In this document: piece by piece, positions 4,271 through 64,000 of the stretch
Layout: every line of letters starts with the position of its first letter
How positions within the stretch are numbered: the stretch's first letter is position 1
From: Rhabditophanes sp. KR3021
Lineage: Eukaryota; Nematoda; Chromadorea; Rhabditida; Alloionematidae
Assembly (NCBI GenBank): GCA_963281155.1
Contig: CAUJLY010000002.1
Coordinates: forward strand, 4,092,001-4,156,000
Direction of reading: 5' to 3'
Length of the DNA stretch: 64,000 nt
Position numbers and translations under genes: made by a program
Notes under the pieces: generated by a model
Databases searched by the model: none
What the model was told of the DNA's origin: nothing
What the model saw: only the letters and a program-made list of their open reading frames with translations

Positions 4271-7200
4271 CTAATGATTTGATGTTTCCAAAATTGAAGC
4301 AATGCGGTTGTAGAAAGTTGAATACAACGTGGTGGCTTGATGGATGGAAGAGGTATCTCCGAATTCTCTAATAGAATGCATGGCATGTTGTGGGCAGCCA
4401 ACATCAATACACATCATTCCCAATTCAGAACTCAAGATTGGTCCCTGAAACATTTCAATTAATATTAAACAAAAAATAAATTCGACGATACATTTTAAGT
4501 TATTTATTTTTAGTCCCTTGTTGAGTCGCATACGCCAGACAAAAACATCACGCCTAACATCAAAATCAAAAATAATAATAATTTCGCAAATTGATGATTT
4601 TAAAACGTCCTTTACCAAATTTAGAGAGTGAAATGAAGTCAATCTTGACAAAAGATTAGAACAGATCGGGTGCTGCACTAACGAAGAGCTAAATCAAATT
4701 TCATGTTAAAGGCGCGCATTATCAATACCTTTTTTTGTAATGAATATTTAAACTTTAATAAAAAGTTTTAACTCTTTTCATTTAACTTAACAAATTTTCG
4801 TACTATTTTAGTCAAAAAGTATCTAGTGCTGCTCAAAAGATAAATAATCTTAGTAACCCGAATATATTTAGTTGTAGGCAAGTTTTTAGGATAACTTACA
4901 ATTGTTGTACCACATGGTGAATTGTTCTTGACACACATCTTTTGAAGCGGAACTTGAGCTTCAAAGGCAATTTGCTTCAAAATAGAGTGAGTGGTTCCGG
5001 TTGTCGCGTACCTTTGATTTGGATTAACTTTAACGACCACACCTCCGTGGAAATTTGGACGGTGGTTTTCTTCAATTCCTACGTCTGGATTATTTGGATG
5101 GAATGCATGCGCTAAAAAGGAATATGTTAACTGCATAGGCATTTTAAAATATTTACCTTGATCAGCTGAAATGAGGAAAGATTTGGCAATGGAAACCTCG
5201 AAGCTTTCTCCAGCAATACGACGGAGTACCCACTTTGTAAAAGCAGATTGAGCTCCTTGTGCAGATTGACTTCCACATTCTTCATTGTCGTAAGAAGCTG
5301 CAACTCTCACATTAACATCCTTTTCAAATGATCCACCTTTAACTGATTCAATGAGCCCATTAATTGCAGTATATGTGCCAACCAAGTTATCAAGACGTGC
5401 TCCAGATATGAATTCCTCGTTGAAGCCAGTAATTGCAGCTGAAAAACGTAATCTATTATTGAGCGCCCAGTTATTCAAATTTACCAGGATTACTATCATA
5501 AAGATAAATGTCCAAGTCAATGATATTTTCGGGAGTTGTGCCTGCTTCAGTGGCAAGCATCTTCAAGAAACTGTCATGGTGGTCGCCTAACACGGATCTA
5601 GGATCAGCATATCCTTCCAAAGTTCCCTCTACCTTTCCGCTACAACATTTTGCCTCGCCAGCTTTTGATGCAAAAATTGGACGGAGCTGAACTTCTGTGT
5701 TGCAATTAAAATTCTCTCTATCTTTTTCAAGATGAATAGCCAAATTGGGAATGAACAAAACAGGCTTCTTTATGTTGATTTGCTTCACGATTATTCCACC
5801 ATTTTCGCCTTTGATGCTGACTTCTCCGGCAACAGATAAATCTCTATCAAACCTAATAATAAAAATAAAATAAGAATTTATTCATCAAGTTGTCCATTTG
5901 TAAATTAAAACATTAAGTCAAAAAGATAGATGTTTTTAATTTTTAAATTATGGTGTTAGCAAAAGACCCTACCAACTCCAATTTAAGTATTTGTACCTTT
6001 GAATTTGGTAATTAGCTAAAAGCTATCTACGTGTCACGACGATATTTGAGATCAAATACACATTTACGTACTAATTCATTTTGTTTATCTTAGAGCTCGA
6101 GATCACCTCTTATTAGGTGTTTGTTAAGCTGTAGTGCAGGAAGAAGAGATGCCTAAACGTCCACACAAACGAGGGAATGATGAGATTTCTCGTCCGTTTG
6201 CAAAAAGTCTTAGTATAAACGTGGATGAATCTGCTTTCAATCAAGATGAGAAGTTAAGTATGGATAAAAGAAAGCAGTTGTCAAACTCATTAATATGGAT
6301 GAAAGACCATATCCTAGTACACCAATATCCGAAGATGAAAAGTATAGAAATTATGAGCAAACCTTGCACCTGAAGGATTTGATGCTCTTGTTTTTGAGAG
6401 AAAACTCGGTAAAGAACAGACTATTTGCAAATATTCAAGTAATGTGGCATTAACTTATCAATTATCTGAAAGCAATGATTAATTTAAAAGCTAGCCACTT
6501 GTTTTCATTTGGGAGTCTTCAGTCATTTTGAGAACGAATGACAGCCCACAAAAGAAAATTCAATCATGCTATTGAATTATAAATGCTATTTGATAGAAAG
6601 AGGGCTTCATTGGAAGAAGTCCACAACATCTTTCCGGAAATGGGTGATGAGGTAGCTGATCTAATCTCAGGATAATTCTTTGAAGCTAATAAAGATATCA
6701 AAAAGTTCATTATTTCACATTTTGTTTAACTCTCATTTTGATTGTCTTATTTAATAAGGTTACTATTTCCCATTTTTTAAACCCTTAATTCTGATTGCTA
6801 TGTTTAATAAACTGCATACCATGTTCTCCAGATACCACCTCCATACGTAAAGCAACCAACTTGGATAAAACGATCTCCGCCCAATTTTGAAACTGGCTTA
6901 ACACGAAGACATGGAGAATCAGTATGTCCAGCAACCATCGAAAATCCATTACCTAAATAAAAATAAACTTTTATATTTTTTAATACTTTGCACATTCAAA
7001 ATATGATTATTAGCTGGAAGGCATTTTACGTGTCATAATGTTTAAGCTCTAATTTAATACTCACTAATTTTAGTTACACAACATCGCACTCAATATTTGG
7101 TGTTATTTATTCTAATGGCCGAGCAATCTCGCAAAAGGAAGACAAATGCAGATGACGCTGAAACGATTGACCGAGTTTTAAGTAAACCTTTGAGTCAAGT

Positions 7201-8587
7201 TAGCATTGGAGAAAAGCCAAGGAAACTGATCAAGACAGAAATGGGTACATCTCGTGGAAGAAGCGTAGATTTTGTTGAAAGAGGTATGTTTTATGATTTA
7301 TCAACTTATTAATTATTTCCTTTTAGAGTATTTTCAATTGGAGTTTGTTCAATTCTTCGGAGAAGCAACTCTTATAATTAATGACCCCAAATTATCTCCC
7401 ATTATTGATGCAGATGCCATGAATGCTGCCAAAAGAAACTGTGTTCTGAAAGTGATGCAAGTTATTTGGTTAGACTCAAAGGAAGAACTGAAAACCTATG
7501 AAACCGTTAAAAAGTCATGGTCGCAGCTTAGTCGATCTCTTACCAATCTTTTTTGACACAAATGTAACTGCGGATCATTAACTGATCTTTTAAGGAAACT
7601 TAGAGATGATGAAATTTTTGAGAAATCAACATTTACAACAATTGGTATGATTATACAAGCACACTCAAAGGATGTTGAAAATATTCTCTATGAACACTTC
7701 AGATATAGAAACTGTGAAGGCCTTCTCTCTGCAGCCGAGAAATTTAACGTCATAAGAGATGCTGATTCGATTAAGAGTAAACTTGATGACTTGGGCGTGG
7801 GTGAAAGAATGTGTGATGTATATATCATGATTAATCTTGATATTACTCCATCTGAATTCCTTTCTGCGGAAGATGCTAAAGACCATGTTCTCTATATAGA
7901 CAAGACTACGTACACTTTTGCTGGAAGAATACCAGGCCACAAAGATGACTACAAAAAGCAGTTGAACGGGATAAAGTGTTCCCGGAAAAGGCTGTCCATA
8001 AAGTTTTCAATGCTGGCCAAGAAATGATTATCTCGTATAAGTCCTATGCTACAGAAGAACTTGCTGGCAATATCGAAGCTATACTCATCGAATACTTCAG
8101 GGATGAGAATACTAACAGTGACTCTGACAATCCATCCCTTAAAATTGTCTATCAAATGCTCCCTGAAGAGAAGGACGAGGTCGCAGAATTGATCTTCCAA
8201 GACCTTTTAGATGCTAATGATATTGTTTTTCTAAGAAAGTAAATGGTTACTTAATTGTTTTAAATTACTATATTCATATGTCTTTCATCATAATTTTTAA
8301 TAAACATTACCAGGCTTATAGTTCCCTCCAATTGCAAAAGCCATAATCGCCGATCTATTTTTAGTGACGTAGTATTTTCCAAAGTTGGCTAACTTCCAAG
8401 CTTCTGTTTCTTTCAACTCCTTGAAGCCAGCAGCTTCCAATAAAACTTTGCACTCAGAAACAGCTAAAATTATTTGTTACATATTTAAACTTGATTTAGA
8501 CTTACCATGGAACGGAGTTACCGATTTGTTTAAGAAGGTTACAAATTCAGCTGCCGCAGCACGAACTTCACTAACAGCGGAGGACAT
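4271..8587 (-). CDS. dnpp: Aspartyl aminopeptidase, M18 family (DNPEP)
   Basis: A cytosolic zinc metallopeptidase that removes N-terminal Asp/Glu from peptides. Exons, high to low: 8587-8506, 8463-8311, 6952-6820, 5852-5485, 5438-5157, 5111-4900, 4444-4271; all phases agree and the sum is 1404 nt (467 residues), the usual family length. M18 landmarks are [12 protein letters not shown] (metal-binding His), [58 protein letters not shown] and [12 protein letters not shown]. Two introns are far larger than the 40-nt norm here (5853-6819 and 6953-8310), and each carries an antisense copy of the GIY-YIG-like family. The 455-nt intron 4445-4899 may hold an older remnant. The gene symbol is by family only. 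Confidence 0.93.
5940..6730 (+). pseudogene. Intronic GIY-YIG-like family, copy 1 (in DNPEP intron)
   Basis: A degraded copy on the strand opposite to its host, inside DNPEP intron 5853-6819. Its 5' flank (5945-6125) matches the flank of the SerRS-intron copy over more than 100 bases, including the string gctaaaagctat and a ttttag-like acceptor region. A 79-codon start is open from 6134. Further on, [17 protein letters not shown] (from about 6369) aligns with [16 protein letters not shown] in the SerRS-intron copy. The shared tail [14 protein letters not shown] (about 6633-6674) ends in a stop. Zinc-finger and GIY-YIG parts are not recognisable, so internal deletion is likely. Confidence 0.7.
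6990..8242 (+). CDS. Intronic GIY-YIG-like family, copy 2 (most complete)
   Basis: The best-preserved member, nested antisense in DNPEP intron 6953-8310. The likely start is 7115 (MAEQSRKRK). A 43-nt intron (7284-7326, GT-AG) joins exon 1 to an open exon. After a stop near 7554 (one lesion), a region from about 7647 gives [16 protein letters not shown] as the first GIY-YIG strand and VLYIDKTT where YIG is expected (Gly replaced by Asp), then an Arg and GHKDD. A one-base shift near 7965 leads into [17 protein letters not shown] (Glu motif) and the shared C-terminus [18 protein letters not shown], ending at 8242. With a stop and a frameshift it is probably inactive unless unannotated introns remove them. 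Confidence 0.6.
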
Positions 8588-9160
8588 TTTTTGGGAGGTA
8601 TCTAAAATAATTATTTATTAAAGCATAGTAAATACTTGGGTATTTAAAGGCTAGTGCTGCAGCTAAATAATGCAAAATAACATCATCAAATAGTTAGTTT
8701 AAAGTCTTAAATAAAAGCTAAACTGGAGATGTTCTTAAAATCTCTCCTTATATAATGAGGTAATCTACATATAATAACTAATATAATAGGCGGATTTCAT
8801 AACTTCCTCAAGACGTTCATATTTGCAATATGGCTATTTTATTGTTCAAATAAAATATTAGTAATTAAACGACATGCGGTTGAGACAAATGTAAACAAAT
8901 GTTGGGAAGTCGTGTCACACACATTAGAGACATATTTAGTGGTGTGATGAATACATACATCTACAAAAAATAGATCAGTTCTGTTTCTAGGATGGGAGAA
9001 TAAATACAATTAAGATTTTATAAAAAGTTTTTCTAATTATTGATATGATAAGGACGATGGATGATGTGAAAAAACGCAAATAATATATTTTTGCTGACAA
9101 GGAAGAGGCAAGGTATAGTATAGCATTTGACCATCTAAAAAGTCGTGGTAAAAGAATTTT
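8588..9160. other. Intergenic, 5' side of DNPEP
   Basis: AT-rich DNA of about 570 bases upstream of DNPEP on the minus strand. No domain, RNA gene or repeat was recognised. It should contain the DNPEP promoter and the 3' end of the small secreted gene that follows. Confidence 0.4.
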
Positions 9161-9427
9161 TTATAAACGGGTGGTTAGATTAATATTATATGAAGTGAGA
9201 CAGGATGTAAATATATTTTTGTTATTCCACTTACTCTTTTGTATTTGATTTGTTTTGTCAAAATAAATTAGCTGTCTTTTTTTTGATTTGCGTCTAAATG
9301 ATCTCTTCAAAAGCTTGGCAACTTTGTTAAAAAAGCCGGGTTTGGTAAGTTTATCCTGGGTCATCGCAGAAGTAATAAACAAATATGTAAAAATTAAGAA
9401 TTCAAATGCAATTTTTGAAGATAACAC
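9161..9427 (-). CDS. Small secreted cationic peptide (predicted)
   Basis: An open frame of 88 residues. It opens with a clear signal peptide (hydrophobic core IAFEFLIFTYLFITSA, with cleavage probably near AMTQ). A strongly basic, possibly amphipathic stretch follows at about residues 25-50, rich in Lys/Arg and including KLLKRSFRRKSKKR. A GTAAGT donor lies inside the frame near 9230, so the last third may be intron and the real C-terminus could differ. No cysteines occur in the basic part. I do not recognise a family. Antimicrobial-like peptide, neuropeptide precursor or fortuitous frame are all possible; the signal peptide is the strongest support. Confidence 0.4.
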   Translation of the reverse strand: MLSSKIAFEFLIFTYLFITSAMTQDKLTKPGFFNKVAKLLKRSFRRKSKKRQLIYFDKTNQIQKSKWNNKNIFTSCLTSYNINLTTRL

Positions 9428-9567
9428 TTATCATACGTTTTTATGCAATTAGATAGTACTTTTTATGGTTTTACTGATTAAGATGAGATATATGTTGGGT
9501 GGAGAGGAGCAAAATAAGTAATTATCGCTATTTTTACAAAATCAAATATTATGTGTGTTTGTTTGTA

Positions 9568-10361
9568 TTAAAGAGTATAATAATACTCGTGGAATGATTG
9601 ACATTGCGTTGAGTTAACAAATGACAAAGGAGAATCTTTGACGACATCGGGATTGAGGAATTTGTAATTTTTCAAGAACGTGTATAGTTCCTTTGCATAC
9701 TTTTGGTCGAATTCTTGAGGATTACGAGCGAATACCATTGTGGGTGACTTTAAGGGTTGAGATAACACCATGTAATCATGAAGCCCTTCCTTATTTATTG
9801 GACCAAGCCGAATTAATAAATCTATAAAAAATAATTAATATGGTACATTATGTAATACTCACATGGGCAATAATCAGAAGGGTGATTGAAGTTAAATAGC
9901 AGTTGCCCAGGATCTGGACCATATTGCTGCCCGAATCCATTATAAATTGTATTGCTTTCAAAAGTTTTTGAATATTGAGTAATAGAAAAGGTAGCTGTAT
10001 ATTCTGCTTTTTCAATCATTTCTAAATGAGCGATGCTACATTGTTCGCTATGCACACTTGGCGTATCAACAACTATATGCCATTTTCCCATTAATCTCGG
10101 AATGTCAATATCGCCAATAGCGTGAAAAAGATTCTTATAATATGATTCCATATGGGTATCAGCCTCCGGATCTTTCAGTATCTTCTTCAGCAAATCGATG
10201 GAAGCAGAGACACTTTCTTTAGTTGAGCATGAGTTTAAGAATAACTCGAATATACTTAATGAAGGAACAACTCTACCCGGCACCGGAATACCAACAATAG
10301 CTCTTTTGGAAGACACATTCTTAAACAAAAATAGTAGCAACAAGATTTTATACAAGAACAT
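9568..10361 (-). CDS. Secreted nematode-type lipocalin
   Basis: Two exons (10361-9863 and 9821-9568) encode 250 residues. A signal peptide (MFLYKILLLLFLFKNVSS) is followed by an alpha-helical spacer and a lipocalin barrel beginning LMGKWHIVVDTP at about residue 95, the GxW motif of strand A. GFGQQYGPDPGQLLF and NHPSDYCP in the middle, and YMVLSQPLKSPTMVFARNP near the end, match a lipocalin-related family I know from nematodes. It should bind a small hydrophobic ligand outside the cell or in the cuticle/apical matrix. The intron is 41 nt. The chosen start is the first ATG that gives a signal peptide. The ligand cannot be inferred. Confidence 0.82.
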
Positions 10362-10622
10362 GGTCAAGTTTCTAAAATGGTCAATGAAATACTTTATTAC
10401 AAAATATTATTTGTAGGAAAGAAGGTCAAGGGTAAACGACATAAAACATTAGTACACCATTCTACATCATTTGAAATCAGTGTCAAAGAAATTGGTGACT
10501 ACGCTACCTCGATTTATTTTTAATTTAATAATGATAGTAGAATATTTAAAGTACGTAATGGTACGTTACAAGACTTCATAATACAGTCATCAAAAGAAAT
10601 TCAATTTATAGCCTAATAGAAT

Positions 10623-10840
10623 TTATGACTTATGCTCTTGAGAGACTTTTGCTTCTCTGATTTCCTGGATCTCTTTTCCTTTCTTTGTTTTCTTGGGTCG
10701 AGTTAAATCCGAAATTTTTTGGATCAGACGTAGATTTACTTTTTGAGCATGTTCACTTTTTACTGCATCAGCTTCAACATCAGTTTTTCTTGAGTCGCTT
10801 TGGAGTTGAAAGTCTTTTTGTCAGATTCAGACTTGTCAGG
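10623..10840 (-). other. Possible 3' exon of an unidentified lysine-rich protein
   Basis: From an acceptor-like TTTGTAG next to 10840 a minus-strand frame reads a Lys/Ser/Glu-rich peptide. After an apparent one-base shift near 10790 it continues to LRLIQKISDLTRPKKTKKG and a stop at 10623. Codon content looks coding, but no family is recognisable and no upstream exon was found. The rest of the 790-base gap between the lipocalin and the BRCT-like gene shows nothing else. Confidence 0.25.
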
Positions 10841-11151
10841 CTACAAATATACATATTAAAATTAAAGAAAACACAACATATCATTTTAATTAGCACTGGT
10901 CACCTCAATCATAAAAACACATTTCTTTACTTATTTTTAAGGTCTGAATTTTGGAAAATAATTAATTTAGATGTTGTGATTGACTGCATTTATTCAAAAA
11001 AAATAAGACGCATGTTACTAGAAATTAGCATTGTTATAAACTGAGATATTACACAACAAGTACAAAGATAAACTGCTTATGACCTAACTGTCATATCTAG
11101 TAATCCCTTGATTACTTAACGTGTGAGTAGCACGAAAGAGTAATATGCCTT

Positions 11152-12050
11152 TTAAGCAATAATATATTTTTGATAATTGACCGCTCTGCCTTCCCAAATA
11201 GACATACAAATGAATTTATACGACACTACAGGGCAATTCAATTTATCCCAAAAAACTTTAAAAGAGTGTCCTTTGTTAGATCCCGAAATTATAAGCGAAT
11301 TATTTGTTGAAGTAATTTCACTGAATGTAACCATCACTTTAGCACCAGTTTTCTTTAGCATATATACCATATCCTTCAACGCAAATTCCAATTCATTTTC
11401 ATCCCAAGTTAGTTTAGGTACCAAAAAAGAGTAATTATCGAAAATGTTAATCGTTTCTTTTGAATAAATCCTTTTATTGAATATGTCTTGAACTTGTTGG
11501 ATTTGTCGGGCACTGTCAATACTGTGTATAAAGCAATTGTTACAAATTGATTTAGCAAGCCACAGATTACTTTCAATTGCTTCAGTTGCCATTTCATGAG
11601 GATCTAATATAATGACTGTAGACTCATCCAGGTAGATTTTTTTATTCAGATAAGGAAATGATTCCCTAATTGTTTCAATTAGCCTTTGAATGTCCTTCGA
11701 TTTTCTCCAAAAAAATATAAATATCTAGAAAGTTAAATAATTAAAAGACACATTTATATCACATTTCCATTGAATTTGTATTAAAATTACCCTCTTTGAT
11801 TTATCAGGATTTTGAGATTGTAGCCATATGTCATTCCATAATACATATTTTTTCGTTTTCCTTTGATTTTTAATAATAGGTAGTTTGAAAGAGTCAAAGT
11901 CGTCATTTAATTCCTGAGGTATTGAGGATAAATTAACATTAAAGCGGTCATAGCTGAAAAGGAAATAAAAACCATCGTTATAAAGATTCTCTTCACTTAC
12001 AACGCCTTTATGACTTTATCATTCTCGCTATCTAAAATATTTGCCGCCAT
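11152..12050 (-). CDS. BRCT-like domain protein, otherwise unrecognised
   Basis: Three exons (12050-12001, 11953-11791, 11724-11152) with agreeing phases encode 261 residues. The last 90 residues look like a BRCT fold: a predicted strand-helix pattern ends in CPVVSYKFICMSIWEGRAV, the usual hydrophobic-Trp/Phe-x-x-x-Ser-I helix and the EGR turn of C-terminal BRCT repeats. A middle stretch, KKIYLDESTVIILDP, may begin a second, diverged repeat. BRCT domains bind phosphopeptides in DNA-damage and replication control. The residues that would hold phosphate cannot be confirmed, and the N-terminal third (many Lys/Arg, a tryptophan motif VLWNDIWLQSQ) is unassigned. No close homologue is recognised. 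Confidence 0.6.
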
Positions 12051-12199
12051 TGTAGGTAGGACAACGATGCAAAAAGTGTGTTGACTGTCTAACAAAGATG
12101 CGTTTTTAAAATGCAAATGTTCTTGCCACGATCTTTGTATTATCAAGGTCTACAACTCTTTCAATAACAAGTCATTTGTTATATCGCTCTATTTAAAAT

Positions 12200-13704
12200 A
12201 TGGTTTGGTTTGAAGGTGCCGTTTCTGAAGCAGTTGCAAAAAGTAAGGATGAAAAAGCTATTTTCATTGTTTATCTTCACCACAAGTTATGTAAGTCAAA
12301 CAAAACGCTTAATAATTATTAATATCGATGTTTTTAGCTGAAAAACAAGGAGAAACTGAACGTTTCGAGGCTTTTTGGTCACAAATTGATTTGGGCTTTT
12401 TTGAAGTTCCATATGTTGCTATCCGCGTTGAGATTGGTTCCACTTATTTTGCTCAATTCGCCAGTATTTGTAAGTATCTAATGCAACGTCATCATAATTA
12501 TTATTCTTTTAAGATAAGCATCCAGTTGTCCCATCTACTTACTTCATTGGGCAGGATGGTAAAGTCATTGACATTATCTCTTTGATTGAGGAAATCGACG
12601 GTGATATCTTCATAAATAGAATCACTAAGGCGTTTGATACCTTCGCTGGAAAGAATGGCTACAAGTCTTCTGTCGGTGCATCCATGACTCATGAGCAAAA
12701 GAACGAACATGTGAAGCAATTGGTCGATAAAGCATTGGCTCTCAAACAACAAAAAGATTTGGCAGAAAGTCATCAAAAGGAAATCGATCGTATCAATGAT
12801 GGCAAAAAAGCAGCCGAAGCAAAGGAAGCCTTCCGTGAGAAAGAATTGAAGGAAACCGCTGCTTCCTTGAAAAGACAAAAGGATGAAGACAAAGCTTACA
12901 AAAAGCGTCTCTTGGATCAAATGGAACTTGAAAAGAGAGAACGTCAAATTGACGAGGAAAGACGTAAAGGAATTTACACTCAGCCAAAGAAAACTCCTAC
13001 AGCAGCTACTGTTGCAGTTGCTTCCGACCGTTGTCAAATTCAACTTCGCTACCCCGATGGAAAAACAGCCGTCAAGGAATTCGATTCAACCACTTCTCTT
13101 CAAGCTCTCTACGACATCGTCGTATCCGAAAAGACCTTCGAGGGAGAGTTTTCGATTGTCTCGGCGTTCCCAAGAAAGGAATTCGTCGATTTGGAAAAGA
13201 ATTTCCTGGACTACCAGCTTACTCCTAGATCATGTATCTTGGTCGTACCCGTACGTTTAAATCTTTAAATGCCAAAAAAAAATTTTTATTTTCTAGAAAA
13301 GAACTGAGCAATAATAATTTTTTCGACTTATTAAAAACGTTTATTCATAACTAATTATTTTATTTCTTATTCTTAAATAAATTTTTTATGTATAGAAAGA
13401 GTATGATTCTCGTACCAGTGGTCCCATTACCGGACAGAACAATTACATTAGTGCGATTATAAACCTAATCAAAGCACCAATATTTGTTATTCTAAATTTT
13501 ATATTATCGTTTGTTGGGATGAATACCGCACCCGTTATAGAATCTGCTCCTGCCGAAACAAAGACAACGGACATTAAGAAGCCTGAGGATGAATCTCTAG
13601 TTCGCCAAAGAACAAACATCAGATCTCTCCCAAAAGACGGCAATGCAAGTTCAGACGATGAGAGAACCGAAACTTGGAATGGAAATTCCACGACACAATT
13701 GTAA
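12200..13704 (+). CDS. ubxn-4: UBX domain protein 4 (UBXN4/erasin)
   Basis: An ER-membrane adaptor that recruits the AAA ATPase p97/CDC-48 for ER-associated degradation. Four exons (12200-12290, 12338-12469, 12514-13250, 13396-13704). The N-terminus MVWFEGAVSEAV, with PSTYFIGQDGKVID later, is the thioredoxin-like fold of UBXN4. A long charged coiled coil covers roughly residues 140-260. The UBX domain begins at CQIQLRYPDG and contains the p97-binding loop AFPRKEF. A hydrophobic hairpin at about residues 335-355 (AIINLIKAPIFVILNFILSF) is the ER anchor, followed by an acidic tail. The final intron (13251-13395, 145 nt) is unusually long for this window but shows no inserted gene. Confidence 0.93.
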
Positions 13705-13831
13705 TTTATACAGAACAGTCACATTCTTATTTTGAAAATTTTATGTACCGTCATAATTTATTAAAAGTTTTGTCATTTGGTGAAAAATAAAATACTTTAT
13801 TGTTTAGTATCTTTCGTAAACAAACTTTAGT

Positions 13832-14307
13832 TTATTGGAACGTTTTCTTGTGGATTAGTTCCTTAATAAGTTCTTCCAACAAATCATCAGACACCTTGTT
13901 TTCCAAACTTGGGATAAGTGACTTGGCTTCTTCAGCTGTTTCAGGAAGCAAGTTGGATAATTGGGCCAGTTCGAACTTATGGATTTTATTTTGTCCATGA
14001 AATAATGTACGCACAGCACGGATAGTTTCACGGTTTTTGAATTTATTAAAACGCCTAGTGTAATCCAGGGTTTTGATAAAAACAGGACTCAACTCGTCGA
14101 TCTCCTCTTTTTGTTCACTTTGTTGTCTTCTGTGATCCAGTAGCATAAATACCTCAGACGTCAATAAAGCGTCACTGCTAGGATGATTGAATTCTAAATT
14201 AATAAAGTCAACCATGTGTATTTATGTGTCAAACCTTTAGGAAAACTCAAATCCGCTGCATCGTCAGTACTGGTTTCCGGGTTAGCTTTTGGAGCTGTAG
14301 ATGCCAT
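13832..14307 (-). CDS. rpb-4: RNA polymerase II subunit RPB4
   Basis: The RPB4/POLR2D subunit, which pairs with RPB7 to form the stalk of RNA polymerase II. Exon 1 (14307-14235) and exon 2 (14193-13832) join in phase 1 to give 144 residues, the normal size. Family signatures are LSFPKEFNHP, the HMLLDHRRQQ-like stretch, FKNRETIRAVRTL, HKFELAQL and PETAEEAKSLIPSLE, ending in a short basic tail. The 41-nt intron is canonical. Its start lies 153 bases after the stop of the small membrane protein on the same strand, so it may be the last gene of an operon that begins with seryl-tRNA synthetase. Confidence 0.95.
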
Positions 14308-14459
14308 CACAAATATTAAAAGTTTAAGTATTAAAAATTCGAATATACAATTTTAAATATAAAACAAATTTAATGTATGCAAACAACATTTTATTCACAA
14401 AGATATTGGAAATAGGTGTATGTGAAAAAGTATATGCAATATAAATTAGGATCGAAATA

Positions 14460-14846
14460 TTATTTAGGAGATGGTTTTTGAATGACTACGATTTGAGGTT
14501 GGATTGGCTGTCCATTAGCATCAACTCCTTGATTCAAAGTATTATCGGATTGCATCTTCGCGATTACTTTCTGAACATCCTTCATGATTTCTTTGTCGGT
14601 TTTGGGTTTGCTTGGCCTGGGGGACTTATTAGACTTATTTGTTGCCTTCTTCCTTGATGATTTTGACTTTTTCCTGGCTTTAAAAGCAATTTTCCCTTGG
14701 GCAACAAGAATTAGGCACATAACTGCAGCTCCAAGTACAAGTGAGATCATGCTAACCAAGACTTGGCCAATTACAGAGCGGGGACCATTGCCATATTGTG
14801 GAGTATATTGAGCATTTTGTTGTTGATAGCCGTTGTTACTATTCAT
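14460..14846 (-). CDS. Small single-pass membrane protein, unknown
   Basis: A single-exon frame of 128 residues from the chosen ATG (an ATG four codons upstream is also possible). An Asn/Gln-rich head is followed by one strong transmembrane segment at about residues 27-47 (QVLVSMISLVLGAAVMCLIL). A very basic Lys/Ser/Arg tract comes next (about 50-75), then a short helix (KEIMKDVQKVIAKMQ) and a Pro/Gln/Val tail. The positive-inside rule predicts a cytosolic C-terminus. I do not recognise a family. It lies between MUT (91 bases) and RPB4 (152 bases), all on the minus strand, which supports co-transcription rather than a shared function. Confidence 0.65.
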   Translation of the reverse strand: MNSNNGYQQQNAQYTPQYGNGPRSVIGQVLVSMISLVLGAAVMCLILVAQGKIAFKARKKSKSSRKKATNKSNKSPRPSKPKTDKEIMKDVQKVIAKMQSDNTLNQGVDANGQPIQPQIVVIQKPSPK

Positions 14847-14936
14847 TGTAATGAACAAAATGATGCGTATTAAATTTATTTTATAATGTGTTGACTAAAT
14901 AAATGAAAATTACAATATTTGGCAATTCTATCTTTA

Positions 14937-18755: not shown

Positions 18756-21700
18756 TTATGGTTTGGTTTCTAAGTCAACTGGAGCTGGTTTAACAAATAG
18801 AAGAATATCTCTGTATTTTTTTGGCATGAAGGGCTTCAATACCTCTGGAATAATAATCCCTTCTTCAGTTTGGAAGTTTTCTAGGATTGCGCAGATCGCA
18901 CGAGTGGTAGCACACATGGTTGAGTTAAGCATATGAACATATTCCGGTTCTCCGTCTCCTTTCTTGGTTTGTCCGTAGCGGATTTTCAAGTTGCGGGACT
19001 GGTAATCAGTGCAGTTTGAGCACGAAACCAATTCTCTGAATGCCTTTGAGCCAGGGAACCAAGCTTCCAAGTCGTATTTTTTGGCAGCAGCCAAATTCAA
19101 TTCTCCAGAAACAATATTAACAATTTGGTACGGAATCCCCAACGATTGGTAGAACTCCTCGCAATTTCCAATCATCTCGTCAAACATCTCCCATGAAATA
19201 TTTTCCCTTGGTGAACAAATGACGAATTGTTCAATTTTTTCAAACTGATGGACGCGGAAGATTCCACGTGTGTCGCGACCATGAGATCCAGCTTCTTGAC
19301 GGAAGCACGTGCTGTATCCAGCGTACTTAATTGGCAAAGTATCGGGATGAAGCCACTCATCCTTGTGGAATGCAGCAATCGGTTGTTCGGAAGTCGCAAT
19401 TAAATACTTATCCTCAGATCCCTCGCCATTGGGCTCGGTATTTTTGTCACTTAATTTGTAAAGTTCCTCATCAAATTGGGATAATTGGGCTACCTCGGCC
19501 ATCACACTTTTGCGCATGAAGAATGGTGGATAAAGGGGAGTATAATCTTTATCTCCAAGTAATTGCAGACTGTAATTGATCAATGCCAATTCTAAGTATA
19601 CAAGGCATCCTTTAAGGAAGTAAGCTCTTGATCCGGCCACTCTTTGTCCACGATCACCATCATACCCGTCAACCATGAAAGCAAGATCGAAATGAGAGTA
19701 TCTCTTAGTGGTCTTGATGTCTCCGAATGTACGGATGATTTCGTTGTCATCTTCGGTATTACTAATGATAACACTGTCGTGAAGCCAATTTCCAATGCTA
19801 ATAATTAGTTTGTCGCGTTCATCTGCAATTTCCTTCAGTAACTCTTCTACCTCTCCAACTTGCTTGACAACTAGTGGGTTAAGAGTCTTGATTACATCAA
19901 CCTTGAATGGCTCGATGTCAGCAGCAGTAATTTCTGATAATCTGGATTCGATGTCACTTGGTAGTTGATCAATCCCATCCTTTGATTTGGATTTCATTTT
20001 CCCACCAATGACCTTGGAAATGGTATTTCTGGTACGATTCAAACGATCCTTCTTGAAGGTGGCTAAATATAAAAGTTAAGTCTTTTTCAGGGTTCAAATT
20101 ACCTCCCTTTTGTGATTTAATATTAATGTAAAAAAGATTACAACTTTTAAATTATTGGGTTAATGCAAGACTCTACCAACTCTTGTCTCAGACTTTCAAA
20201 TTTTAATACGAGCTAAAAGCTATTTACGGGACATGGCTATATTTAGATTAAATACGCATTTACTATGTAATTCATTATGTCTATTTTAGTGGTAAAATCA
20301 CCTCTCATTATGTGTTTAGCAAATATCATGGAAGATAAGAAGGCTAATCTCTTTCGGGAAGAGGAGATGATTCTATTTCTCGGTCATTTGGAAAGTGCTA
20401 GTATTAATGTGGAGGAGAAGGTTGCTTGCTCTGGCGATGTAATGTCGATCTTAACAAGAAGTAAGAATTCTGTGGATGGATTAAGTTTAAACAGTCATTG
20501 CTTGCAGTAACTCTTTCATTTTAGGTCCACTTCAAATTAGGGGTGAGGAAGTGATAGGGTTACAGTTGGAAGAGCTGGTCTGCCATAAAACGAAAATGGA
20601 AGAGCCTAGTTTAAATACTGATAAGGAGTTGAATGGTGAAGAATTAGAGAAATGTATCGAGTGATTAGGCTGGACAGAAATACCCTGCACAAGCACAAAT
20701 ACATTTGAAAGAAACAAATATCAGAATATGAACAAACCTTCTACCTGAAAGATTCAATCTTTTTGTTTTTGAGAGGAAAATTGGTAAGAAACAGAATCTT
20801 CGAATCACTCCAGACATGTGGGGTCAACTTACTGAAGATCTTGGGACAATTGTTGATTTAACAGTTAGTTATTTGTCATCATTTTTATTTGGGAGTAATG
20901 TAATCTCATGCAGTTTTGAGGCTCAAGGATTTCTAGTACATTTTCGTCTTATGAATTGTTATACTATATTATTCATTCATCATACAAGTATCCAGCTTTT
21001 ACAAGGTACTTCTTTAATATTTTATTGAAAGTTAAACGCATTATTAATGCTTTTAATATGCATAAGTAGATGAATTTAGTAGGTCCCAGATCGATACTGC
21101 ATTTCGTATGATGGAAAAGGTTAATGAGGTAGATGAAATCAAACAACTTGCCCTAGATATCCAAACAGAATTGATGGGGGAAGTTGAGTAAACTTTTCAC
21201 TTAATAATACCCGCCGATGTTGCTTTCTCAAAACAAGACGGAGGACTACGGGTGACATGCCATACAAAAATTCAAACATGCTGTTGAGTTAGAAATGCTA
21301 CTTGATAGAAAAGAAGACTTCATGAAAGAAGTTATTTGGAATAAGTCATTTGGTAGGAAGGGCGTTATTATAATAAAGAATTGGTACCAGCCAAAAGAAG
21401 TTGCAAATAATTTTGAATGTATCCTCATTAACGCTCTCTACCACAACTTACTAATTCCAACTCAGGTAAGTCTTCATTCGAAGTAGTCCACATCATGCTT
21501 CCAAAAATGAATAGGGAAGTAGTGGATCTTATCCTAGGATAATTTTTAAAGCTAATAATGATATTAAAGATGCTGAATATGCCCAATTTTTTAAAAAAGT
21601 TTAATTTTTAATTTAACCAAGTTTGATCGTACCTTCTCTCCATTTTTTGTCTAGGTCGACAATTTTCCCAACAACGGCAGTATCCTTGTGGCGTTTCTTT

Positions 21701-29230: not shown

Positions 29231-31674
29231 ATGTCATCCTCCTATTCGTCTCCACTGCCACCCAACGTCCCATCTGGGTGGAACGATCCTCCTGCAATGA
29301 GTACAACTATCACTCGTCCTTCTGTCAACTTGAAGTCTATGCATAGGCGACTTGTGGACCCTTCCATACAGGTTTTTGTTTTCTAATTGACTCGAACTAA
29401 TTTATTTTCATTTTAGGTAATTTAAAGGACAATCAAATCTAAGAAAAAATTAGTATTAAATGACGTACTTAGAATATTGGTGCATTTTGTTGAGAGCAAT
29501 CTCCAAAATTCGGCCTACAATATGAGGATGTTTCTTCCACATGATATCGTTCGATTAATCCGATGCATCGGTGTTTGCCAAGACATTTTGTAAATCCATA
29601 TATTTGCGTACTCAAGAGCTTGATTACTAGTCATTTGATCGAGACCAAATACTGCCATTTGTCTCTTATTTTTCAAGATAACCAGAATACGCGTATTTTT
29701 GTCATTTAAAGGAATAAATGTTGAGCAAATCTTGTTTCTACGTCATTAGAGACTCCACAATAAAAGATTCTATTTTTAAATTCCTCAAACGATAAGGCCT
29801 TAATATCCATTCCAACAGGCAAGTCGAGCAATACGTACATTGTTGTTATCCACTGACTGTGGTCCGATAATTAGCTCCTTCAATTCAGCTTTTAACTTCT
29901 TTCATAACTCCTTATCAGATAATTGTCTTTCTTTATTAAAAGTCTCACTAACTTCGTTTCTAAGTCTGGTACATGCTCTTTTCTTCACATGGAATGAATA
30001 ATGCTCTATCTTTTTGAATATCGTGCTGTAATTCTGACATTTATATTGTCCGCCTTCCACAATCCTTAATTCGGTGCTAAGTCCAAAATTGGGTTCTTTT
30101 CATACATCCCGTGGTATATACTCATACATGTAGTCTCCAGCTTTTTGAGAGTTTCAGGATAAAGTAGTTGTATGAGCTCCATCGCTTTATTTGTTCTACA
30201 ACTGGCCATTTATAAACGACTTTTTCTTATGGCATACACAATAGCGACATCCGCAGGAAACTTATTTCTGGAGTAAATAAATCCAGCAAATCCATTCTTT
30301 GATAACGAGCTAGCAAATACTAATTCCTTTTTGGCCATTGGACCATCGTTTACCATAGCCAAGGAAACATCTTTACTGTGTTGCTCAAATCTTTCAATTG
30401 GACCATTCTTTAACTCTCCAACGTTGTTTATAATACCACTACAAAATCACTATAATATGTTAATGATCGGTTTCTTACAGACATTATAAATGTATTCATT
30501 TATTCTAGTCTTTTGTATTAACACGATCAGCTTATTTTAATTATATTAACATATTCTTTTTGTGGTTATATTGTTTATTATTCTTTTGACTAACAAACTC
30601 TTCCTATTTCCCCTTTCACTAAACATTTTGGTGTTCTTTTAGAGTTCAAGTTACGATTCACAACAGGTCAATCTAAATAACCAACACCAAAATTACAATA
30701 ACGCCTCGCAACAACAACCATTCAATAATTCAAGTAACAATCACGTTAGTTCTTACACCAACAACTCTCAAGTTACTACTCCTGCATTTGGTCAATCCAA
30801 CAACTCTCAAATTGCTACACCAGCATTCGGTCAATCCAACAACTCTCAAGTTGCTGCACCAGCATTTGGTCAATCCAGTAACTCTCAGGTTGCTACACCA
30901 GCATTTGGTCAATCAAACCACACCCACACTGTTGCTCCAGGATTTGTTCAATCTAACTACTCATATCAAGGACCACCACCCATTCAAGATTCAACACCCC
31001 TACAGCGGCCAATTCCGATTCAACCCTCGGCATTTCAGCCATATCAAAACTTCCAACAACAGCAAATGCAAGTTACTGAACCCGCATATGGTTTTTCAAT
31101 GAGTAATGGAATGAACGGAAACAAAAAGAATGGTTTTGTGCATGATAACAATGGTTACTCCCAACATCCGTTAGCACCATATCACGGGAGTGTTGTCAAC
31201 AACCAAGCCGAAAGTGATAACTCATTAATCTTCAGCCCACCAAACTCCATCGTAGGCGATCAAATTAGGCCAATTACCTCACCCGACCGAGCCACCTATA
31301 TTGCACCTATGAAAGCTCCTGGAGTTTTGAATATGAATGGGTCGACATTAGTAATCTTTTTGACAAAGGCAACAATGAAATTAAATGAAGGCAATACTTG
31401 CGAAGGAATCCAATTGAGAATTGCTCAGCTGCATGACATGTTACAGCAAAACAGGATAACGGAGGAGTGTATACGCAAGCTTAATGTCCTAGTTGACGCC
31501 ATAGATCGTGAGTTGTTTCCGGAAGCAGACAAGGCGTTTGATGACCTTCAACATTTGAATAAGGAAGAATTAGGGCAATGGTGTCATGGAATTCGTCTTT
31601 TGATAAATGAATTGAAAAGATTAAGTTTGGACAATGGCCGAATTCGCAGTGCTCCCATTCAAAGAAGGCAATAA
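29231..31674 (+). CDS. SRA1-domain protein (SRA1/SEC31 C-terminal fold)
   Basis: Exon 1 (29231-29371) encodes a Pro/Ser-rich start with VPSGWNDPPAMS, the N-terminal signature of steroid receptor RNA activator protein (SRA1). Exon 2 (30643-31674) adds an Asn/Gln-rich linker with five near-copies of a 15-residue unit (about 30745-30925), and a helical C-terminal domain (about residues 275-375) ending HLNKEELGQWCHGIRLLINE, the SRA1/SEC31C helical bundle. Total 390 residues. SRA1 proteins act as nuclear co-regulators, while the same fold in SEC31 works in COPII coats; the GWNDPP motif favours SRA1. The intron is 1,271 nt and hosts an antisense member of the intronic family. Confidence 0.75.
29425..30465 (-). 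pseudogene. Intronic GIY-YIG-like family, copy 5 (in SRA1 intron)
   Basis: The only copy on the minus strand, and its host is the only plus-strand host, so it is again antisense. A zinc-finger-like segment (YKCQNYSTIFKKIEHYSFHV, then KKRAC) lies near 30030-30056 and below. NNVYVLLDLPVGMD is the first GIY-YIG strand (about 29830-29860), and RIFYCGVSNDVETRFAQHL (29718-29776) is the clearest YxG/Arg/His motif in the window. TSNQALEYANIWIYK holds the Glu motif (about 29590-29635), and HPHIVGRILEIAL the shared C-terminal motif (about 29505-29545). Frame changes and stops interrupt it. Confidence 0.7.
30745..30925 (+). repeat. Coding tandem repeat, ~45-bp unit
   Basis: Five imperfect tandem units encode NNSQV-T/A-TPAFGQS repeats in the low-complexity linker of the SRA1-domain protein. 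Spacing is one codon multiple, so the frame is kept. Confidence 0.85.
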
Positions 31675-42850: not shown

Positions 42851-43757
42851 ATGGCCGTCTCAGCTTACTTTGCCGCTCCAGGAGGAGCTTCTGCCGGTGG
42901 TGTTCAATCCGCCTATTTTGGAGTTGGAGGTGGGGGTGGAGTCCAATCTACTTACTTCGGAGTCGGAGGTGGTGCCGTAGCTACTCCAGCTGGAGGTGCT
43001 GGTCACTTCGCTTTACCCGCTGCTGCTGCACCACGTAAGTGTCCCCATCAGTATCCAAATTAATCAGCCTTCTTTCAGCAAAGGGAGGACAAAGTACAAT
43101 GACAGCTGTAGGACAGCCAATGGGAGCTTCAACTATGACTGGCGAGTTTAGATCTTTAGTTTCCGAATTAATATCTATTCTTTTTAGCTGTCGGTGCCCC
43201 ACTTGGAGCGTCAACTATGGCTGGCAAGTCTTACATCTTTAGTTTCAACTCTAATATTTAATCTTCTTTAGCTGCCGGAGCCCCAATCGGTCAATCCACT
43301 ATGACTGGCAAGTCTTACATCTTTAGTTTGAACTCTAATATTTAATCTTCTTTAGCTGCCGGAGCCCCAATCGGTCAATCCACTATGACTGGCAAGTCTT
43401 ACATCTTTAGTTTGAACTCTAATATTTAATCTTCTTTAGCTGCCGGAGCCCCAATGAAAGGACAATCGACGATGACGGGTTTGTTTACATCTTTAACTTC
43501 CAAATTAACGGTTTTCCTTTTTAGCTGTTGGACAACCAATGGGAGGTGCCTCAACAATGACAGGAATTCAAGCGGTTGGTGCCCCATTAGCACCTTTGCC
43601 TTCTGCATCACCTATGGGAGGTGGCGGTGGAGCTACTTCTGCTTACTTTGGAGTTGGAACCGGAGCTCAATCTGCTTACTTCGGAGTCGGAGGTGGTGCC
43701 ACGCCTGCTTACTTCTCAGCCCCAGGAGCCGTTTCAGCTTATTTCGCTCCAAAGTAA
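42851..43757 (+). CDS. Gly/Ala-rich repeat protein from serial micro-exons
   Basis: Seven exons (42851-43034, 43079-43141, 43188-43223, 43272-43307, 43356-43391, 43440-43478, 43525-43757) encode 208 residues; all introns are phase 1. The ends are built of SAYFGVGGG-type repeats, the middle of GAPIGQSTMT-type units, one per 36-39-base exon. There is no signal peptide, no cysteine-rich domain and no known family. Low complexity and regular aromatics suggest a structural or assembly protein, but this is inference. Introns after exons 2, 3, 4 and 5 use GC donors (GCGAGT or GCAAGT); the one after exon 6 uses GTTTGT. Whole exon+intron units are tandemly duplicated. Confidence 0.8.
43224..43475 (+). 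repeat. 84-bp exon+intron tandem repeat
   Basis: Three consecutive 84-bp units, each a 48-base intron plus a 36-base exon. Units are near identical, including the intron (a single C/G difference seen in tttcaactct versus tttgaactct). A looser copy precedes (43142-43223). Confidence 0.9.
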
Positions 43758-50600: not shown

Positions 50601-50689
50601 GTCCTTTTGCCTTAAGTACTTACTAAATAAAAATACGAGTTCCGTCAATTTTACCGAATTCGAAATAGTGGTGATAATGGCAATCATTA

Positions 50690-50850
50690 AATCTATATAC
50701 CCATACCCATAAAAACCTTTAGGAAATATCCAAAATCGCTAATTTTGGGTGTCGGGGAAAACGAAGTGGGTTGGGTATGAGTAGGGCTAAAAAATGGATA
50801 AAAATGAGTATGGGTAAATTACCGATACCCATATATAGGTTCAATAATAA
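50690..50850. repeat. Short repeat-like segment with tacccata motifs
   Basis: The motif tacccata, or its complement tatgggta, occurs several times in both orientations within about 150 bases (tatacccatacccata, gagtatgggtaaat, cgatacccatatata), with a G-rich core (gtgtcggggaaaacgaag). This could be a small non-autonomous element or decayed satellite. No target-site duplication was established. Confidence 0.35.
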
Positions 50851-50955
50851 CTAAATACAATAAACAAACATTCATGACAAGTGAAAATTGAAGAAGCAAA
50901 AAAAGTTATTATTAAAAGTCATTAAAATTATACAAACACATGTTCAAAATACATG

Positions 50956-52112
50956 TTATTCTTTCTCATAATCTTCGAGTCCTCCATCAGCAATAGCAAA
51001 GAAACATTCAGCTTCTGGAAGCAAAGGACTTTGAAAAAGCTTCGCCATCTTTTTACCCTTCTTCTTAGTCTTGTCGAATGAGATTCTAGTTTGACAAGCA
51101 TGTGCAAGTACATGGCCACCGGAACCAACTTTATCAGGAGCTCCAAAAATAGCCGACCCATCAACGGTAGCACATACTTGATTTGTCATGACAACAGCCA
51201 CACCATACTCACAGGAGAGTCTCATCAAATGCCTGAGGAATCTATTCAACGCCATTTGCCTGTCAGCCAATTCACCTCTCCCACTAAATTCATTACGGAA
51301 CAAATTGATCACACTATCAACAATAACCAACGAGTATTTAGATGCCGCCAGCAAAGCCGAAGCTTGAACCATCATATCCATTTGATGCTGGGTGTTGAAG
51401 ATTCTAGCAACAGAAATGTTATCAAGAACGCAATCGAAATTCAATCCCAATTTATCAGAGATTTCAACGATTCTCTCAGTTCTGAACGTACCCTCCGTAT
51501 CCAACCAAAGACACCGGCCTTCACCACCACCTTCATCGGCAGGCAATTGGCAGTTGACAGCTAAAGTATGACATAATTGAGACTTACCAGAGCCCGACTC
51601 TCCAAACACTTCTGTCATGGATCCAGTCTCGATACCACCCCCCAAAATCCTATCCAGTTGCCTTGATCCAGTCCTTATTTTGATTAGGTTTTGGCGCTGC
51701 TCCAAAACTTTGTCTGCTTTTGTAAAGCCTACATCCATCAGTTTCCTTACTTCGATAAGGATCTTTGTAGCTTTGGCCTCAGATATGCCATCATAAGACA
51801 TAATCTTCCTTTTTGTCACCATCATGACCGACTCAATTGTGTTATGTCCATAAGATCTTAATATATCAGTGTCTTTTTTTGTTAGACCGTATTTCTAAGG
51901 CATAAAAATGGTTACATTATCAAATAAATTGATGATTTTACCTCGAGGTTAGATATCTTTTGATACCCTAATTGACATTCATCAATTTCTTCTTCGGGTT
52001 CTCCTTGGGTGGTAGTATCATCTGTTTTGATTTTTGAAAAAGTTGGATTAGTTGTAGTTGTAGGTGAAATTTCTTGCTTCTTAACTCGCGTGTTTTTTGG
52101 ATTTGCGATCAT
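50956..52112 (-). CDS. rad-51: RAD51-family recombinase
   Basis: A strand-exchange ATPase of homologous recombination. Two exons (52112-51942 and 51894-50956) encode 369 residues. An acidic Thr-rich leader is followed by the N-terminal helix-hairpin-helix domain (about residues 52-110). The core begins TGSRQLDRILGGGIETGSMT. Walker A is GESGSGKS; RAD51 and DMC1 nearly always have GEFRTGKTQ here. The rest is canonical: LPADEGGGEG, WLDTEGTFRTERI, Walker B SLVIVDSV, FSGRGELADRQM, YGVAVVMTNQV (loop 2 start), and PEAECFFAI. RAD51 versus DMC1 cannot be settled. The divergent Walker A and loop 2 suggest fast evolution, not loss, because the lysine and Ser/Thr remain. Confidence 0.88.
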
Positions 52113-52359
52113 TATAGATTAAGAAAATAGTTAAGTTAAATATAGCATATAACTAATATGGTGCAACGTCTGGGTAGTAGAATGGCGCTGAGTTTGTCTT
52201 GAAAAGAAAAAACAAATTCGAAAATGGTTGTTTAATAAAAATGCTGCTATTGTACAGAGACATTTTGAGTGAAATTTATTTTTAAATATTATACAGAATA
52301 AGCTCGTTCAAATTATACATGTTGGTTAAACAAAAAATGTAGAATGCAATCAATGGGTT

Positions 52360-53409
52360 CTAACCAGATGGAACAGCTGGGGCGCTGGCAATCGTCTTTA
52401 TAATAGTATTTGAATCTGCTGGAGCACCGCTTACAAGTGCACTGAAGGCTGAATTAGCAAAAACGCGGCATTCGCAGAACGCGCCAGTAGTGAGCGTCAC
52501 TTTCGTATTAGTGTCCTTTCTAAGAACTTCTAAACTTCTTGTACCAACGGAACACTTAGCAAATCCAGATAGACACGTAACATCAGTTGTGTCGCAAACT
52601 AATTCATTGATAAAGTTTGGAAAATAGTTGTCTGGGAGCTTGCGCCAAGTCCAGCATTTATTACATAAGTTTAAAGTTCCTGTGTTGTCGGTATCAAATC
52701 CTTTGGCAGTGCAAGAAATATTAAACCTAGTTCCAAGTGAAGAAGCTAGCAGTGGAGTAGGAGTTCCTGCTTGGCGCTTTCTTCTACGATGATTGTTCTT
52801 CTTACTTTTGTTTTTTTTATCCTCTTCTTTTGAATCACAGTCGTCCTCGGAATCAGAATCATTGTCCTCACCGCATTTATCATATTTTTTATATGTGTTT
52901 TTTGTTGGTTTTCCCCATTCATAATTAGATGGATCGTTACTCGTAAATCTGTATTTACTGCAGACGGACGTTGTAGTTGCATTGGTAACAGTTACCATTG
53001 AAGCGTCAATCATTCCAACCTGTACAAGTCTTTGTGCTAAATCATCTCTGCATTGCATACAGTCTGGTGTTGTACAATCCATCATTGTGCTTATCGCAGG
53101 AAGCTCAATTTCCAAATTATCGTTCGAATTCACGTAAGTGAGATCTGCAAAGCTAGCCAAGGCCTCTTCGATTGATGTAGCCAAAAAGCGATTATCATAT
53201 GCGAAACAATCACCTCCACTTGTTGGTTTTACACATGGACACTAAAAATATCTTTATTTTGATATTACTTCACTTACTTGAATGCCATTTGGCGAAGCAG
53301 TAGACTGTTGTTGACTATAATATGCATTTCTCTGTGCTCTGTTTCTTCTTGATCCATAAATTTCGATCAAAAAAGAAGCAGTCAATATAATTATTTCAAA
53401 CAATTTCAT
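52360..53409 (-). CDS. Secreted proprotein with furin site and Cys-rich end
   Basis: Two exons (53409-53278 and 53241-52360) encode 337 residues. A signal peptide (MKLFEIIILTASFLIEIYGS) precedes a Cys-containing propeptide (CPCVKPTSGGDCFAYDNRF; MMDCTTPDCMQCRDDL). A very acidic then very basic stretch ends in the furin-type site RRRKRQ (about residue 185). The C-terminal domain of about 150 residues has paired cysteines: CNKCWTWRKLPDNYFPNFI, CDTTDVTCLSGFAKC, GAFCECRVF. This pro-region/furin/cystine-rich layout is that of growth factors and cystine-knot cytokines. No family is recognised with confidence; a nematode-specific ligand is my inference. Confidence 0.75.
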
Positions 53410-54113
53410 AGCAATGTAGATATTTCATATAAATTGTAATAAAGTCTCCGACTAAAGTGTGTATATCACTATAAAAAATGATTCACCACAATTTGTATGA
53501 TGTACAAAGGATGTAATGCTTTGTCCTCCTCTAACAAAATTATAGTTAAATGAAATTAAGCTGATTAAACAAGGGTTATGTAAAAGACATATTTATACAA
53601 ATTCATGTAAAAAATTGGTATAAGTGCAGAGTAAAATATTATTTATTACGGAACAAATTAAGCAAAAATGTATCGGTTTTACGTTTATAGGAAGTTAGTG
53701 TAAATAAAGGAAAAAACTAGTTTGTAATAGCGGACATTGTTTTCTTGAACTTTACTAAAATGTGCAAATTTCTAGTACAGAAGAGTGATGTTTAGTGTAA
53801 ATAAAGTAGATTCCATGAAATTCGGATTCCATCTGGACTCATTGATCAAACAACAATCATTTTCGCCCTATTTAGTATTCTCTTTGGTATTGTTTTAGAA
53901 ACAGTGTCGAAATTTGTATAATATTAAATATATAATGTGACATGTGTTTTTCGGATTGACCTTATCAAACACAATCATTAATCTTTCAATCATGGGTATT
54001 AAAAAAGCATATTCTTGATTACTCAAGGTCTATTTTTTGTTTATTTAATGTATTTAGTAGAATGTGTGTTTTAAAATATATTTATTTAAGGTACCATACA
54101 ACAAACAATTTAT
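53410..54113. other. Intergenic, secreted ligand 5' side to NALCN 3' end
   Basis: About 700 AT-rich bases. One phrase (gtgtaaataaag) appears twice near 53699 and 53796. No gene is recognised. Confidence 0.4.
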
Positions 54114-63526
<9,413 letters not shown>

Positions 63527-63599
63527 CTTGAAAATTAGATCATTATTAGTACGAGTTAAATTAGTTGATTAATTATATTTCTAAATTTTAATGTTTTTA

Positions 63600-64000
63600 G
63601 TTGAAAATGCTCTATCGCAATATTACGATGGCACCTCATATATCTGAATATTAGCTGAAAGTCATTCATATCTTTGGCAATATTATGACCGAATAAAGCT
63701 TTCTTAATATAGTCTGTTTATATTAGTTGCAACAAGATCGCCTCATACTGGTGTTATTACTACTATAGTTCGACAAGTAGAAAATAGGACTATTGCTCGT
63801 GGTTTAGGAAATCAGTTTGCAAGGCAAGCATCATTGGAAGAAAAGCCACCGAGTAAAACATCTAGGAATGAAGATAGTTTGACTGTTGCTAGAAGTGTGT
63901 CTTTTAAAGAGAATAGTACGTTTAAAAGTCAAGTATGTTATGATTGATAACGGACTGAATCATTATCCAAATGGAAGTTATCAAAATGCTCTGTATTTAA
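63600..64000 (+). pseudogene. Intronic GIY-YIG-like family, copy 11 (cut by window end)
   Basis: The 5' part of another copy, antisense in the NALCN intron beginning at 63527. Its start phrase (gatcgcctcatactggtgtt, 63728-63747) matches the phrases at copies 1, 2 and 4. A following frame (IVRQVENRTIARGLGNQFAR, then VARSVSFKENSTFKSQ) resembles the first exon of copy 10. The window ends before the diagnostic domains. Confidence 0.5.

Follow-up and report, generated by a model that had tools for sequence, protein, structure and literature searches.

GIY-YIG nuclease-like elements lying antisense in spliceosomal introns of the nematode Rhabditophanes sp. KR3021: a dispersed family with probable insertion at AG|GT

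The origin of spliceosomal introns is a long-standing question, and two described systems come closest to the one considered here. Introners are introns of mutually similar sequence that recur across numerous unrelated genes; their ends lie close to the splice sites, and their target duplications measure 3-9 bp; some families carry their own 3' splice site and borrow the 5' site from the duplication, family median lengths range over 30-654 nucleotides (nt), and the elements are regarded as non-autonomous (PMC9860276, PNAS 2022). Among animals and land plants, that survey of 3,325 genomes reports introners in just two groups. The shintrons of mirusviruses are spliceosomal homing introns within which endonuclease genes are nested, 132 of these 334 genes being of the GIY-YIG type, and the text of their description gives them no signature of group I or group II introns (PMC12768974, Nat Microbiol 2025); its authors present the association of nuclease genes with spliceosomal introns as previously unobserved, and it is the one such case that we found. 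Here we analyse a window of 64,000 nt from the nematode Rhabditophanes sp. KR3021 (assembly GCA_963281155.1, contig CAUJLY010000002.1, hereafter C2:4092001-4156000, part of a six-contig genome of 44,845,725 bases), several introns of which hold, on the strand opposite to the host gene, copies of a dispersed family whose protein resembles GIY-YIG nucleases. It is likely, in our estimation, that this is a mobile family of about 0.5-2 kb, encoding an antisense zinc-finger protein with up to two GIY-YIG domains, which has spread via insertion at AG|GT in genes.

The worm elements are like introners in that sequences resembling each other serve as introns of numerous unrelated genes and have ends that coincide with splice sites, and unlike them in measuring 0.5-2 kb and carrying an antisense nuclease gene (the word "nuclease" is absent from the main text of PMC9860276). 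With shintrons they have in common an endonuclease gene within a spliceosomal intron, splicing being read here from gene models; shintrons, however, belong to viral genomes, target few virion genes and home between co-infecting genomes (PMC12768974), whereas the worm family occupies a cellular animal genome, with hundreds of unrelated hosts, antisense orientation, in-register AG|GT repeats and tandem GIY-YIG domains. Neither "orientation" nor "antisense" occurs in the main text of PMC12768974. The family thereby unites, in an animal nuclear genome, the intron-making anatomy of introners with the nested nuclease gene of shintrons, and the literature that we searched, itself of partial coverage, yielded no report of such elements in a nematode or any other animal.

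Ordinary introns in the window are short, 45 of 49 being 36-110 nt long in those gene models whose coding sequence reaches 300 nt or more, the gene finder having had the window as its sole training set. The first element-bearing intron of the DNPEP gene measures 1358 nt (6953..8310, minus strand) and is bounded in its gene model by donor AAGCCTG|GTAATG and acceptor TTTAG|GTAATGG. Comparison with a solved structure, human DNPEP (4dyo), supports the identity of this host, whose protein, with both of its element introns spliced out, aligns to 4dyo gaplessly at the junctions, so that in these models the protein reading is restored across them. Antisense to the host lies the family gene (7115..8239, plus strand; gene model; profiles N2 5.5e-22, M 2.5e-17 and G2 7.9e-45, with a match span of 7115-8230), comprising a basic N-terminus, a middle part, the GIY-YIG-2 region and a C-terminus, and broken by one stop and by frame changes; its protein gave zero Pfam matches at E 1. 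The element's conserved non-coding 5' end, TTTGCACATTCAAAATATGA..., which is common to other copies, occupies 6972..7070 (plus strand). Around the whole stands GGTAATG twice on the minus strand, at the donor as the left repeat of the putative insertion site (8305..8311) and at the acceptor as the right repeat (6947..6953).

That large introns of the window share a single dispersed protein family, as the initial annotation had proposed, is borne out by profile and sequence searches, which place it at no fewer than 299 loci genome-wide (at least 299; 154 plus and 145 minus). These were merged from 347 places, namely 112 of the 116 matches of a 367-residue query, 40 of the 41 obtained with the conserved non-coding 5' end, and all of those of the DNPEP intron 2 copy and of a divergent NALCN copy (58196). 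Each query taken singly gave at least 116 (111 of 470 candidates scored), at least 41 (40 of 80), at least 45 (40 of 45) and at least 150 (150 of 396) genome matches, respectively. An ordinary family of host genes that sit inside introns, were multiplied through gene duplication and are retained because they serve the host would be compatible with the few copies that retain long unbroken frames (L014, L082); the majority of the listed copies, however, are fragments or stop-bearing, the hosts (DNPEP, SerRS, NALCN and the ryanodine receptor among others) are unrelated to each other, and both the repeated insertion-site signature and the conserved non-coding ends speak against such an origin, which we regard as very improbable. 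As to distribution, element copies crowd into the middle fifths of contigs C1-C3, and the largest contig, C6 (11.2 Mb), holds 9 of the 299 element loci compared with 9 of 66 WD40 loci (hand-merged, among the matches listed; Fisher p 0.0015), a scarcity that perhaps reflects a sex chromosome that is silent in germ cells.

The nature of the protein is clearest at L014 (C1:5777240-5778568), where an unbroken frame of 443 residues lies within a ryanodine-receptor gene on the other strand. This frame matches PF01541 at 26.3 bits (cut-off 22.6) in two stretches, while a second Pfam GIY-YIG model reaches 19.5 against a cut-off of 21.4 and the C2H2 fingers score weakly. Both domains keep, by eye, the positions of the tyrosine, Y-x-G, arginine, glutamate and asparagine that we take to be the GIY-YIG active-site motif, and R and E are conserved in the alignments of GIY-YIG-1, as is N in those of GIY-YIG-2. 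Used by itself against the genome, PF01541 returned 48 places, 23 of them above the cut-off; a family match stands within 1 kb and on the same strand at 25 of the 48, 11 of the 23 above-cut-off places adjoin a family match, and 13 places adjoin genome matches of the NALCN copy at 58196..58354. By similarity, then, the family protein is a GIY-YIG nuclease, and DNA cleavage is its predicted activity. The GIY-YIG fold is held in common with LEM-3/ANKLE1 and Penelope-type proteins (PMC1564403), from which L014 differs by its two GIY-YIG stretches and weak C2H2 matches and by the lack, in Pfam, of any reverse transcriptase, ankyrin or LEM match; a fragment at L011 scores 20.9 bits against LEM-3_GIY-YIG, below the family cut-off of 27. 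A comparison of L014 with 5.8 billion proteins, by a method that requires shared short words, produced 2816 candidates and none at E <=0.1, and solved structures gave weak matches only, the best being 2wsh, endonuclease II, at E 0.11. Some copies contain introns of their own.

The orientation of the family was measured by scoring a spliced-host model across each element on the opposite and on the same strand, for 55 clustered elements of which 52 were evaluable. The opposite-strand host outscored the same-strand host at 46 of the 52 (binomial p 1e-8), and scores above 5 were reached by 30 opposite-strand models and 2 same-strand models; 22 of the 52 elements are without a strong antisense score (>5), often through short flank. 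When the element is masked, 25 of the 32 loci that hold a family match (34 loci examined) show an antisense intron across it, and the lone sense call, at L033, involves a 2-nt exon and is accompanied by an antisense call. The sense score was the higher one at L005, L015, L016, L023, L052 and L057, the models of L015, L016, L023 and L057 showing host exons on the opposite strand, which leaves L005 and L052 as possible exceptions. The family had been described from the window as living only in introns and always antisense, with no intergenic copy seen, and this description holds among the 52 evaluable elements, where no convincing sense or intergenic copy appeared and rare exceptions are possible.

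The ends of the elements fall almost at the splice sites. On the host strand, one end is the branch-point-like ...TTACTAATAA; of the 12 copies in which its distance can be measured, 11 have it stopping 9-12 nt short of the junction and one has it 18 nt short, and at L035 the junction reads AA and the acceptor lies farther on. The opposite end begins near TTTATTAAA, 3-37 nt past the donor (17 of 19 measurable copies). Where both ends can be measured, the non-element remainder of the intron has a median of 23 nt and falls below 36 nt, the shortest ordinary intron among the window gene models, in 9 of 11 copies. Conservation extends as far as the acceptor at L012, L017, L024 and L028, and L026 keeps both ends despite an internal deletion, with 555 nt between them. 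Two further features of these ends may be recorded: L016, L019, L021, L023 and L024 have in common, near the donor, CTAACTAAT...TTTTAG|GT(A/G)AGTA(C/T)TGG (host strand), which has the form of an acceptor fused to a donor, like recursive splice sites, and would permit splicing in steps; and the window segment 5853-5930, together with L002, L003, L005 and L007, makes up a subfamily with a distinct conserved acceptor-side end (AATTTACAAA.TGG, host strand).

Duplication of the target was assessed at 26 element junctions curated by eye, a choice that may itself introduce bias. Donor and acceptor contexts match in register at 6.42 of 9 positions, against 5.65 when mispaired (p 5e-5, n=26) and 4.09 for ordinary introns (n=47), and exact nine-base repeats stand at L006 and L035. 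The exon after the acceptor begins with GT at 15 of the 26 element introns versus 1 of 47 ordinary ones (p 7e-8), and still does so at 11 of 22 (p 4e-6) once the four junctions judged to precede an ordinary intron (L033, L035, L036, L065) are set aside, an exclusion that is conservative because L033 may precede an exon instead. As a guard against bias, eleven junctions whose donor and acceptor were both chosen by the gene finder, the two of DNPEP included, gave 6.55 versus 5.66 mispaired (p 0.004), with GT in 7 of 11 (p 8e-6). There is thus statistical support, at the level of sequence, for a duplicated AG|GT target which, together with the branch-like end, would supply the splice sites, and the elements probably insert at AG|GT, duplicate that site and thereby make or lengthen introns.

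We picture the process as follows. The encoded nuclease would make a staggered cut in gene DNA at AG|GT, and repair would copy the element in and double the target site; the left AG|GT would then serve as donor, the element end and the right copy as branch point and acceptor, and the element would leave the RNA as a spliceosomal intron with the host mRNA intact. Only the antisense orientation would give the host a 3' splice site, and antisense copies would persist in genes because a sense insertion would be without an acceptor. In some cases the insertion would have fallen on a splice site of a short intron already present, which thereby became longer. The initial annotation had explained the antisense pattern by the shielding of the host from the element's own signals; the pattern stands, but this explanation loses ground, since the spacing of the acceptor-end motif and the duplicated AG|GT indicate that the element usually makes the intron, which would render the antisense rule largely one of construction. 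A bolder form of the argument, which we put forward tentatively and to which we give somewhat less than even chances, is that these are self-mobile animal spliceosomal introns, in which an antisense single-chain double GIY-YIG nuclease, by recognising DNA that resembles a splice junction and cutting it always in one direction, plants a ready-made intron.

A number of observations weigh against insertion at a duplicated AG|GT. At 15 of the 26 curated junctions the acceptor differs from that of the gene finder, or the gene finder has none. The best unconstrained 9-mer around the ends scores 7.48 versus 7.32 mispaired (n=21), and an automatic junction rule gives p 0.42 (n=16), so that neither of these cruder tests carries a duplication signal; the regions they compare are long and AT-rich, and the 16 loci that the rule retained include some doubtful junctions. 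The spacing between donor and conserved start, varying as it does over 3-37 nt, is unlike the exact end of a transposon, and terminal inverted repeats did not turn up, no systematic search having been aimed at them; as regards a cut-and-paste DNA transposon, the L014 frame gave no transposase match in Pfam. The element's own coding can also depress the sense-strand score in the orientation test, an effect of which the masked run is free.

An alternative is that the elements enter existing short introns, through splice-site-like targeting or through selection, and create none, sense copies being lost through their own splice and polyadenylation signals. It is favoured by an ordinary short intron that lies directly downstream of L035 and L065 in the gene-finder models and seemingly, by eye, of L036 and L046. 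In the same direction, L012 carries upstream a 36-nt intron-like piece, visible by eye, and elements occupy an identical codon position at L020 (C3:3793145) and L064 (C2:886644), in paralogous hosts that we presume to be AP-1 mu, and yet are not mutual best matches, as would befit an old shared intron struck twice. On the other hand, the non-element remainder in most measurable copies is shorter than any ordinary intron of the window, GT-starting exons are far commoner than after ordinary introns, and the repeats stand in register, for all of which reasons we consider this alternative unlikely. The short introns beside L035, L065, L036, L046 and L012 do imply that existing splice junctions were entered too.

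Less probable again is the proposition that the elements are non-autonomous passengers of a retrotransposon of the long interspersed nuclear element (LINE) type, moved via target-primed reverse transcription. A LINE at C5 ~318-324.5 kb (L077, L081) lends it some substance, in that its first protein shares a module with the 60399-60689 subfamily of the window and has behind it an APE endonuclease (PF03372, 39.6 bits) and then a frame resembling reverse transcriptase; the sequence of the elements is moreover variable at the 3' end. Copies nevertheless retain introns, both ends are kept despite internal deletions (L026), no poly(A)-like tract is seen by eye at the junction, and the LINE reverse transcriptase has 49 genome matches against hundreds of elements. 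The first protein of the C5 LINE looks GIY-YIG-like by eye and has no Pfam GIY-YIG match. Two other candidates were rejected: group I or II self-splicing introns, for which neither the window nor four loci yielded an Rfam match at gathering score, and a LINE or Penelope retroelement proper, the L014 frame having no reverse transcriptase and L077/L081 being a separate LINE that has one.

Were insertion at AG|GT to hold, the consequences would be considerable. Transposition and the novelty of the introns are what we infer from sequence, and insertions that made introns would let biologists watch an animal genome gain them; a family present in hundreds of copies and coding for its own nuclease would open the gain of introns to direct test, because the target site, a candidate enzyme and the product are all available already. 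Spliceosomal introns bearing nuclease genes, a kind that received its name in 2025 from mirusviruses, would extend to a cellular genome, and if the elements were indeed self-mobile, homing by a nuclease and the gain of introns would be a single process, acting on the scale of such a genome.

Within the window, where copies were scored by six-frame profile searches over its entire length, eleven introns of six genes had been said to carry the family. Eight of them do so at E <=1e-5 and on the strand opposite to the host (two in DNPEP, one in SerRS, five in NALCN), the SRA1 case is weak, and the claim is unconfirmed for MUT and EXOC8, whose introns had zero family matches in this search. The NALCN, SerRS and MUT identities are supported by comparison with solved structures, whereas SRA1 and EXOC8 are names that we assume for their hosts. 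Six of the eight copies match profiles not seeded from themselves; those at 58196 and 60399 match self-seeded profiles, so that their support comes from at least 149 and from 17 other genome matches, respectively. Outside the DNPEP, SerRS and NALCN introns no window profile match had E <0.1, and matches at 50783, 57442 and 61690 (E 0.17-0.55) are at chance level.

The second DNPEP intron (967 nt; 5853..6819, minus strand; gene models; alignment gapless at TW|FD) holds a decayed antisense copy at 6331..6702 (plus strand; profiles G2 6.5e-11, C39 2.1e-11), with at least 44 further places in the genome. The SerRS intron, 1570 nt by its gene model (20063..21632, minus strand), includes an antisense copy at 21256..21551 (plus strand; G2 2.2e-12, C39 2.4e-12). 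The five antisense copies in NALCN introns are all on the plus strand: 54698..55292 (G1 2.9e-9, G2 5.1e-14), with pieces of GIY-YIG-1, zinc finger and GIY-YIG-2; 58196..58354 (self-seeded C39 2.5e-16), the divergent query mentioned above; 60399..60689 (self-seeded C40 5.5e-39; 18 genome matches including itself), of a further subfamily; 62371..62888 (G2 9.2e-6 and 1.8e-3), decayed; and 63792..63905 (N2 8.0e-10), an N-terminal exon in the most upstream NALCN intron seen. A possible, weak copy lies at 29489..29593 on the minus strand, antisense to the plus-strand SRA1 host (pairwise E 7.6e-6; profile E 0.2).

Apart from the family, an 84-nt unit is repeated 3.9 times at window positions 43132-43455 and coincides with predicted exons of 36 nt and introns of 48 nt; this is apparently a tandem duplication of a whole exon-intron unit, which multiplied an intron with a GC-type donor.

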